From Cohnella laeviribosi DSM 21336 (GTDB lineage: Bacteria > Bacillota > Bacilli > Paenibacillales > Paenibacillaceae): 64,000 nt of DNA. This document shows, piece after piece, positions 39,608 to 51,007 of this stretch. The position numbers and the translations under genes were made by a program. Each line of letters begins with the position of its first letter. Position 1 is the first letter of the stretch. The stretch is taken from the NCBI RefSeq assembly GCF_000378425.1, contig NZ_KB899808.1, forward strand, positions 62,001 through 126,000. Reading direction: 5' to 3'. The notes under the pieces were generated by a model. That model did not search any database and was not told the DNA's origin. It saw only the letters and a program-made list of their open reading frames with translations.

Positions 39608-39631
39608 AGTCATCGTACAATTGCATACGAG

Positions 39632-39700
39632 CTCATATAATTTTGGGAATATGGCCCATAAGTTTCTACCGGACGACCACTGTAATCGTCCGACTATGAG
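39632..39700 (+). ncRNA. Purine riboswitch aptamer, guanine class
   Basis: P1 is CTCATA (39632-39637) with TATGAG (39695-39700). The conserved three-way junction sequences TATAATTTTGG, GGAATATGGCCC and AAGTTTCTACC are present, and P3 is GGACGA/TCGTCC. The specificity base is C39694 (CCGACTATG), which selects guanine, hypoxanthine or xanthine; adenine switches have T there. It lies upstream of xpt, as in B. subtilis. The aptamer is about 98 bases from the terminator, longer than usual, with two extra small hairpins between (for example GGCACTT/AAGTGCC). Confidence 0.96.
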
Positions 39701-39797
39701 TGATAGCGAGTGCATTCCGGATTCCGTCCTTCAGCGAAACGGGGGACCGGTCCGGCGATGCTGGCACTTGAAGTGCCGCCATAAGGGATGAATCCCC

Positions 39798-45618: not shown

Positions 45619-45790
45619 AAAATGTGTCTACGCAATGGAACTGCATGCCAACACACGCAATGTCCTTCACGGAACATAACTGCTGCACAAAATGACTGCG
45701 CAATGCAACTGAGTAAAATGGCTACATAATGCTACTGCATTCAACAAATTGCCTACGTAATACAACTGTACGTCATACAGCTGCGCAGAT
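45619..45790. repeat. Degenerate AAAATG...AACTG intergenic repeats
   Basis: Units of about 23-26 bases recur at 45619, 45658, 45689, 45715 and 45746 with a loose consensus AAAATGNCTACGYAATGCAACTG, separated by a few bases. They lie in a 610-base gene-free gap between yraN and comM. Stops are frequent in all frames, so this is not a decayed gene that I can recognise. Confidence 0.6.
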
Positions 45791-45928
45791 GCTATGCAGG
45801 CCAAGGATGTTACGATGCATAACGGCGGCAAATGAATCGGAGCTTGCACCCGTCGTCTTCTTCACAGGCGATCTGATCCGTGTACTTCATATCTGTCTAC
45901 TTTCTTTGTCTTGCGGCAGGAGCTATCA

Positions 45929-46106
45929 TGGAAAAATTCCAATGACCGAAGGCGTTTCCCTCTGAGAAGCCGCTCTACATTGGATTTTTCCATTGAATTT
46001 GCGGGCTTGGGCGGAAAATTCCCTCAACATGGCGTTGTAGATTGGATGAAATCCAAGATAGGTGTAGAAGGCGCTGAAAACGAACCGGCACGTTGGAAAA
46101 AATCCA
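45929..46106. repeat. Four TGGA..TCCA dyad elements, regularly spaced
   Basis: Palindromic cores TGGAAAAATTCCA (45929), TGGATTTTTCCA (45981), TGGATGAAATCCA (46043) and TGGAAAAAATCCA (46094) are 52, 62 and 51 bases apart. A weaker GGAAAATTCC lies at 46013 between the second and third. The first and third spacers share GAAGGCG. They lie just beyond the 3' end of comM and no gene covers them. Confidence 0.75.
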
Positions 46107-46154
46107 GGATAGCCGCAAGCCGACCAACCCCCAACCGCAACCGGCATAAACTCT

Positions 46155-50479: not shown

Positions 50480-50600
50480 GTACCGTTTTGTTCAAAGTGG
50501 TGGCATTGCTCATTTGTCCGTACCGTTTTCCGGTGGGCAAGCAGCATTCACGATTTGTACGAACCGTGTTCCGTCGGCTATGGCATATGCACCCGTTTGT
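50480..50600. repeat. Three degenerate 40-bp tandem units
   Basis: Units begin with GTACCGTTTT at 50480 and 50520 and GAACCGTGTT at 50561, a period of 40-41 bases, and each ends in a CATTTGTCC/CGATTTGTAC/CCGTTTGTA-like stretch. It lies in the gap after sucD and no gene covers it. Confidence 0.7.
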
Positions 50601-50783
50601 AAGTGCCTTTTGCGCAACTGCAACGCCCTTTTTGGGGAGAGAGGGCGATCGAAGTGCACCAAAAGCAACTGGGCTTCGCATGAGCGCCGAATTTCGCTGG
50701 AACGACCGCCTAAGTGCAGAAAAGGCAATTGCATTGGCGACAAAGCGGCGGCCGGGCTCTCGAATTGCTTTTGGGGCAACTGG
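50601..50783. repeat. Four 21-bp AAKTGC-N9-GCAAYTG elements, regularly spaced
   Basis: Elements of exactly 21 bases start at 50601, 50652, 50712 and 50763. Each has the form AAGTGC or AATTGC, seven to nine variable bases, then GCAACTG or GCAATTG, a partial dyad. Spacers are 30, 39 and 30 bases, so starts are 51, 60 and 51 apart. The spacer sequences differ. This is much like the spacing of the unrelated elements at 45929-46106. Confidence 0.78.
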
Positions 50784-50858
50784 AAAACGGCTTCGACCGT
50801 AAAAAATCAAAAAGCGGGTCGGCCTAGCCATCAAGCCGCAAGGAACCTTCCCGCAAAG

Positions 50859-51007
50859 AAATCCCGACATAAATCCCGACATAAATCCCGACATAAATCC
50901 CGACGTGAATCTCAAGCAAATCTCGATGTAAATCCTAATGTAATATGTAAATCCAATGCAAATCTAACGTGAATCCCAACGCGAAGCCCAACGGTAACCG
51001 CAACAAT
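50859..51007. repeat. 12-bp AAATCCCGACAT tandem array that decays
   Basis: Four near-perfect AAATCCCGACAT units (50859-50906) are followed by about eight increasingly divergent ones up to 51007, all keeping an AATCC..AACG-like pattern. One 6-base and one 1-base phase slip occur. On the minus strand it would read as repeated GFMS if translated, but no ribosome binding site supports that. Confidence 0.82.

Follow-up and report, generated by a model that had tools for sequence, protein, structure and literature searches.

Two intergenic gaps in a 64,000-nucleotide stretch of the Cohnella laeviribosi DSM 21336 genome (here called the window) each hold four dyads with the same short-long-short spacing. 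Do the two layouts have a common basis, and what might the dyads be for? We found that each gap carries a single copy of a dispersed intergenic element about 195 bp in length. The element consists of four palindromes, each about 17 to 21 bp long and arranged as F, F, R, R, with about 51 bp within each pair and 60 to 63 bp across the inversion (Table 1). Judging from sequence, we tentatively favor (probability about 0.42) an explanation in which a candidate dimeric DNA-binding protein recognizes the palindromes as double-stranded sites. Separations of 51 and 62 bp would correspond to about five and six helical turns; four dimers would then share one face of the helix, where they might form one rigid nucleoprotein complex, such as a loop or an architectural anchor. 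If the specificity of the protein changed, the letters of the dyads would change genome-wide while the geometry stayed.

Pfam searches of the flanking genes gave UPF0102/YraN, a ComM-type Mg-chelatase, SucC, SucD, and DprA, in agreement with the gene names (yraN, comM, sucD, and dprA) in an earlier note on this DNA. That note had placed the family A dyads of the sucD-dprA gap correctly, with their 51/60/51 spacing, but had read them as 21-bp units with an N9 spacer; the unit is AAKTGC-N7-GCAAYTG, of 20 bp. We found four exact matches to it in the window, compared with 0.02 expected from shuffles. An N8 spacer was rejected, as a search of the same genome with one mismatch gave 8 matches versus 18 in the backwards control, which is chance level. 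The family B dyads (TGGA..TCCA) of the yraN-comM gap lie 52/62/51 apart, as described. TGGA-N5-TCCA matched five times in the window, three times inside the family B element and twice elsewhere; 0.65 matches were expected, and none of 100 shuffles reached five. The note had called the two families unrelated, with completely different cores. Aligned by their centers, however, both read RTTG-N9-CAAY: the family A core is RTTG-C-N7-G-CAAY, often with GTG in place of TTG in one arm, and the family B core is RTTG-GA-N5-TC-CAAY. Because they have this in common, the dyads look like variants of one plan.

Table 1. Dyads and elements in the window, further arrays in the C. laeviribosi genome, and other palindromes found in the genus
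Feature	Position	Strand	Spacing or step (bp)	Basis or remark
Family A dyad 1, AAGTGC-N7-GCAACTG	50601..50620	+		Motif match and own-genome arrays
Family A dyad 2	50652..50671	+	51 past dyad 1	
Family A dyad 3	50712..50731	+	60 past dyad 2	
Family A dyad 4	50763..50782	+	51 past dyad 3	
Whole family A element, sucD-dprA gap	50598..50786 (approximate limits)	+		Alignment with copies at L002 to L006; own-genome BLAST
Family B dyad 1, ATGGAAAAATTCCAA	45928..45942	+		TGGA start 45929
Family B dyad 2, TTGGATTTTTCCAT	45980..45993	+		TGGA start 45981; loop shorter by one base
Family B dyad 3, TTGGATGAAATCCAA	46042..46056	+		TGGA start 46043
Family B dyad 4, TTGGAAAAAATCCAG	46093..46107	+		TGGA start 46094
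Whole family B element, yraN-comM gap	45922..46114 (approximate limits)	+		BLAST to L008; limits by analogy with G002
Family A array L002			51/61/50	
Family A array L003			51/61/51	One weak match at 1541 set aside
Family A arrays L004, L005			51/61/51 each	
Family A array L006			51/61	Fourth dyad not recognized
Family A array L019			51/61/50	
Family A array L144			51/61/51/61	Tandem
Family B relative L008			51/63/51	One weak match set aside
Family B relatives L135, L319			51/63/51 each	
Family B relatives L006, L140				Decayed
Other palindrome TAACCCG-N5-CGGGTTA			52	
Other palindrome AGTCTC-N4-GAGACT			51-52	
Other palindrome AACATGA..TTCACGTT			51-52	
Other palindrome GCTCA-N5-TGAGC			51	
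Other palindrome AAGCAA-N5-TTGCTT			51-53	
Other palindrome AGTCTC-N5-GAGACT			50, one 39	
Other palindrome TGAGT..ACTCA			52	

Both patterns occur elsewhere. Seven further family A arrays, with spacing near 51/61/51, are present in the C. laeviribosi genome (G000), TGGA dyads at 51/62/51 recur in another genome of the genus, G002, and other genera have them within 1 to 2 bp of that spacing. Because of this recurrence, the layout cannot be put down to chance. At L006 (1511-1840, contig C32 of G000), the family A array grades into degenerate family B-like dyads.

G002 is rich in copies. Searching it with a pattern of the two central dyads, set 62 bp apart, gave 76 forward and 77 reverse matches (the pattern is nearly palindromic); the backwards control and the other 36 genomes of the genus gave none. 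The exact TGGA-N5-TCCA pair at 61 to 63 bp occurs at 77 places. We collected 59 copies from 1.117 Mb of the 6.2-Mb genome (the DNA around listed copies and other stretches), choosing them for good inner dyads; inner conservation is therefore by construction, and the outer dyads are unselected. The F1-F2 distance was 51 bp in 55 of the 59 copies (52 and 53 in one each, two not found), and R1-R2 was 51 bp in 52 (otherwise 50, 50, 52, 52, 61, and 61, with one not found). That two of 59 copies have 61 bp, a shift of 10, argues for phased protein sites. So does the finding that stem letters of the unselected outer dyads were kept at 0.95 and 0.92, compared with 0.72 to 0.75 in the linkers and 0.33 to 0.34 outside (n = 59). 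The element spans about -58 to +135 around the core, with no conservation beyond. On contig C2 of G002, copies with at most one mismatch, counted by eye, seem denser near the inferred origin, mainly at 1.03 to 1.64 Mb.

We also scanned seven genomes for pairs at any spacing from 41 to 71 bp, without preselection. This gave 4 to 235 pairs per genome and none in the backwards control. All 75 pairs listed, out of 165 in G511 and G470 (another family of the order), were 51 (22 pairs), 52 (25), 61 (6), 62 (13), or 63 bp (9) apart; G511 contributed 50 of its 69 places and G470 25 of its 96, and many come from shared loci and cannot be counted as 75 separate events. The constant spacing with differing letters, in G002 and in these listed pairs, supports the phased-site explanation. 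Against it, none of the 75 pairs has a spacing one turn below 51 or one turn above 62 within the range of 41 to 71 bp.

Among 394 genomes of the family, 39 have the TGGA type at 61 to 63 bp; they represent 7 of 19 genera, and the control gave 1 genome. A draw of 392 genomes from the order gave 54 with this type, in 13 of 49 genera and three families (backwards control, 5 genomes with one match each). A repeat family of the genus, as had been suggested, is thus too narrow a description. Single matches to the TGGA pair may be chance, and the one in G004 looks so. We then compared 25 loci, one per genome, including loci of G002, G004, and G000. The spacing was 51/62/51 in 12 and within 1 to 2 bp of this in 7 more; in the remaining 6, at least one outer dyad was not recognized. 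G054 has three copies at 52/62/52 and a fourth locus at 53/63/52, and G114 has two, at 52/62/52 and 51/62/51. L333, L335, and L337, from three related genomes, are copies at the same position. They have three recognizable dyads and a degenerate but alike fourth, with F1-F2 of 52, 51, and 51 bp, and the neighboring DNA on both sides, beyond the upstream gene, aligns poorly. This retention of the element also favors phased sites. For L331/L340 and L336/L341, the flanking DNA aligns as well, so these two pairs are uninformative on retention.

All in all, the spacing (about 51, 62, and 51 bases) hardly changes between species while the letters of the palindromes drift. The earlier note had proposed a fixed plan in which only the sequence drifted, and this holds for the C. 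laeviribosi genome, for the genus, and for further families of the order; rather than varying freely among copies, distances of 51 to 52 and 61 to 63 bp recur. The two groups in the window appear to belong to a single kind of intergenic DNA element that is widespread and as yet has no name. We found no description of such elements in the titles and opening parts of abstracts that our literature search covered, and no exact F-62-R core in viral contigs.

Tandem palindromes with other letters, at a step of about 50 to 53 bp, were found in G004, G017, G020, G025, G033, and G034, and a second type was found in G002 (Table 1). The stretches scanned were 120 kb each of G017, G025, G033, and G034 and 20 kb each of G020 and G004, as well as G002. 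That other palindromes keep this step in six genomes of the genus and in G002 points to phased sites, although these are known here as head-to-tail arrays alone. Compared with whole turns, the spacings are 50 to 53 and 60 to 63 bp, with 61 replacing 51 in two copies; the one step of 39 is no whole number of turns and counts against phasing. Another five stretches yielded a single array, in G004. About 20 kb from each of fifteen other genomes of the genus (plus 40 kb for G010 and G021) gave no such array, a small sample that says little. In 1.92 Mb of DNA from the genus, 105 pairs of similar dyads were found, 29 of them at 51 to 52 bp and 31 at 101 to 104 bp, versus 21 pairs, 3 at 51 to 52 and 3 at 101 to 103 bp, in 1.34 Mb around 80 ComM loci, mostly from other phyla. 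The four Paenibacillus loci among these 80 had no dyad pairs near 51 or 62 bp. A stricter three-dyad scanner found nothing in 20 loci of the genus; it also found nothing in the window and so misses diverged copies. Homology of linkers between genomes with different dyads was too weak to rely on (5 of 55 comparisons at p ≤ 0.03, about 1.7 expected).

In G002, GC skew and gene strand both switch near 1.70 and 4.86 Mb, which we assumed to be the origin and terminus. In 57 of the 59 copies, the element is oriented along replication; orientation scores fall below 15 for two copies, of which one is an exception. With flanks classed relative to the element from the gene calls of a simple script, the leading copies comprise 34 ++, 14 convergent, 7 divergent, and 2 antisense, and both lagging copies are ++. 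All 14 convergent and all 7 divergent copies thus follow replication, a pattern not expected from transcription alone. In G002 stretches not picked for copies, gap length is 60% ++, 16% convergent, 19% divergent, and 5% -- relative to the leading strand, and the copies fill these classes roughly in proportion. As read by eye from listed copies, orientation agrees within contigs of G511 (six loci on C12, three on C1, and two each on C3 and C23) and is mixed in G295 (five versus four and one unclear, among ten listed of 35) and on contig C18 of G470 (two versus one). Replication polarity is therefore established in one genome only, G002.

The orientation and gap occupancy in G002 would be expected if the elements were REPIN-like, that is, if inverted palindromes formed hairpins where the DNA is single-stranded at the replication fork, and a transposase working in trans moved them, with the F-62-R pair as the mobile unit. 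Consistently with this, the G002 repeats are intergenic, high-copy doublets of inverted palindromes, as REPs and REPINs are; 77 exact cores occur in G002 and none in most relatives, and one copy (L165) is reduced to the F-62-R core. The absence of the TGGA type from 338 of the 392 genomes of the order, by exact pair search, is also easier to reconcile with a mobile element than with a core function. A passage in a review states that IS200/IS605 elements follow the direction of replication (PMC5371812), and the text seen of another paper describes REPIN palindromes as more conserved than their spacers (PMC3116915), as is the case here. Less in line with REPINs, the commonest spacings of SBW25 REP doublets are, according to the same text, 71 and 110, one per REP group (PMC3116915), whereas 51/62/51 is common to families of the order. 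The portion seen of a third paper places REPs mainly between unidirectional and convergent genes and gives them a GTAG or CGTC tag at one palindrome end (PMC3733652). No constant tag is apparent in the flanks CCTAtG, CTAgAg, and CGAAG, as read from the G002 consensus.

The search for a transposase gave little for this explanation. We found no match to PF01797 (Y1) in the array-bearing genomes G004, G020, G025, and G033, and no A- or B-type array at any of the 11 loci scanned among 18 listed Y1 matches, a scan that is telling for just four of these loci, those in G000 and G002, where the dyads are of the A or B type. (Beside a Y1 transposase locus of G008, L275 2696-3056, lie CRISPR-array-like direct repeats, AATTTCAATCCACGCAACC.) No consistent target-site duplication was present among the 59 G002 copies: flanking repeats of at least 4 were absent in 22, and the rest were at scattered offsets, the commonest offset pair occurring three times. 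Insertion of the IS200/IS605 type is not known to need such a duplication. The mixed orientation in G295 and on C18 of G470 also speaks against REPIN-like movement, which we regard as possible and as less probable than phased protein sites. Against a MITE made from the two ends of a DDE transposon, with two transposase sites per end, speak the lack of a consistent target-site duplication and the palindromic nature of the sites. Tn7-like or Mu-like ends do have two transposase sites each, which resembles the two inverted site pairs here, and L155 and L164 are modular copies with additional sites. Replication-biased orientation is likewise noted for Tn7 TnsE in the review passage (PMC5371812). 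We consider a MITE very unlikely.

The earlier note had also allowed for a structural element made of RNA. Every dyad could form a hairpin, so the element might be a structured RNA or 3'-untranslated region with four hairpins, and most G002 copies are co-oriented with neighboring genes. We found that RNAalifold reported a covariation of 0.0 on either strand for the 59 G002 copies, so that the compensatory changes proposed as a check were not seen there. The energies of the two strands were nearly equal (-13.5 and -14.7 kcal/mol), and nothing outside the dyads paired beyond two base pairs on the antisense strand. Rfam gave no relevant match at the gathering cutoff for the window and four G002 loci; at E values up to 0.5, 19 loci gave two subthreshold matches, both away from the element. 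(The window does contain a purine riboswitch aptamer, RF00167, at 39613-39716, with 72.5 bits.) Linker lengths are fixed as firmly as the dyads, and the convergent and divergent copies follow replication. An RNA element is therefore improbable, though a shade less so than a MITE.

Pairing within the dyads is less one-sided. Among recognized G002 dyads, none has TGGA/TCCA changed on both sides and still paired, and the loops of F1 and R2 do not covary (50 copies), which led us to reject long-range F1:R2 pairing. Together with the lack of RNAalifold covariation in G002, this argues for double-stranded sites. Between species, outer stem positions do covary (strand not distinguished), which an RNA would also predict. 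Stem position 3 was paired in 23 of 44 inner dyads (12.3 expected after shuffling) and in 21 of 38 outer ones (10.5 expected), with the effect of relatedness still included. This covariation fits a changing half-site as well as a hairpin or cruciform. In one element, L332, ACAGGA/TCCTGT stands next to ACTGGA/TCCAGT, a stem changed on both sides; this and the between-species covariation suit hairpins or cruciforms and count against phased sites. On the sense strand of G002, mismatches in the F1 stem were G.T in 41 cases and A.C in 5, whereas those in F2, R1, and R2 were A.C in 47, 43, and 24 and G.T in 0, 3, and 13. The idea that F and R wobble on opposite strands fails, because F2 behaves like R1 and R2 and F1 alone is G.T rich. 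No single strand wobble-pairs all four dyads; three of the four fit the antisense strand better, which agrees with an RNA and, under the phased-site explanation, leaves room for a single-stranded structure.

Among known systems, REPINs and BIMEs come close: they too consist of short palindromes between genes, arranged as inverted pairs and present in tens to hundreds of copies, with spacers less conserved than the palindromes and with several families in related genomes. The element differs from them in having four sites rather than two and in a spacing plan common to genera and families while the palindrome changes; no Y1/RAYT gene was found beside it at the loci scanned, and no constant tag tetranucleotide was apparent in the consensus flanks. 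BOX elements of Streptococcus pneumoniae are likewise modular intergenic repeats with a variable number of inner modules, but their modules are not known to be equally spaced palindromes as the sites here are. In multisite operators and resolvase res sites, palindromic sites for dimers are also spaced by about five turns, but each of these is a single locus next to its gene, unlike the 77 dispersed cores of G002.

Repeats are usually defined by their letters; here, distances are conserved and letters are not, and letter-based searches would show many unrelated families or nothing. The constant geometry permits a direct test of phased protein sites: which protein binds, and whether adding half a turn breaks binding. 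The polarity of 57 of 59 copies in one genome raises the question of whether it reflects a route of spread or a polar function. Going further, one could imagine a chromosome-organizing system of the whole order, with dispersed four-site loading platforms for a fast-evolving DNA-binding protein that keep 51/62/51 bp, have their recognition sequence replaced between lineages, and in at least one species lie nearly all along replication. We rate this wider proposal as unlikely.

Other repeats lie near both elements in the window. Directly upstream of the family B element, 45620-45790 holds imperfect units like AAATGnCTACGCAATGCAACTGCAT. Their half-sites resemble GCAACTG, the family A score finds no regular spacing among them, and the run may be an array that has decayed or one of a third type. 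At about 50860-50985, on the downstream side of the family A element, a tandem run of a short unit like CCCGACATAAAT decays towards dprA.
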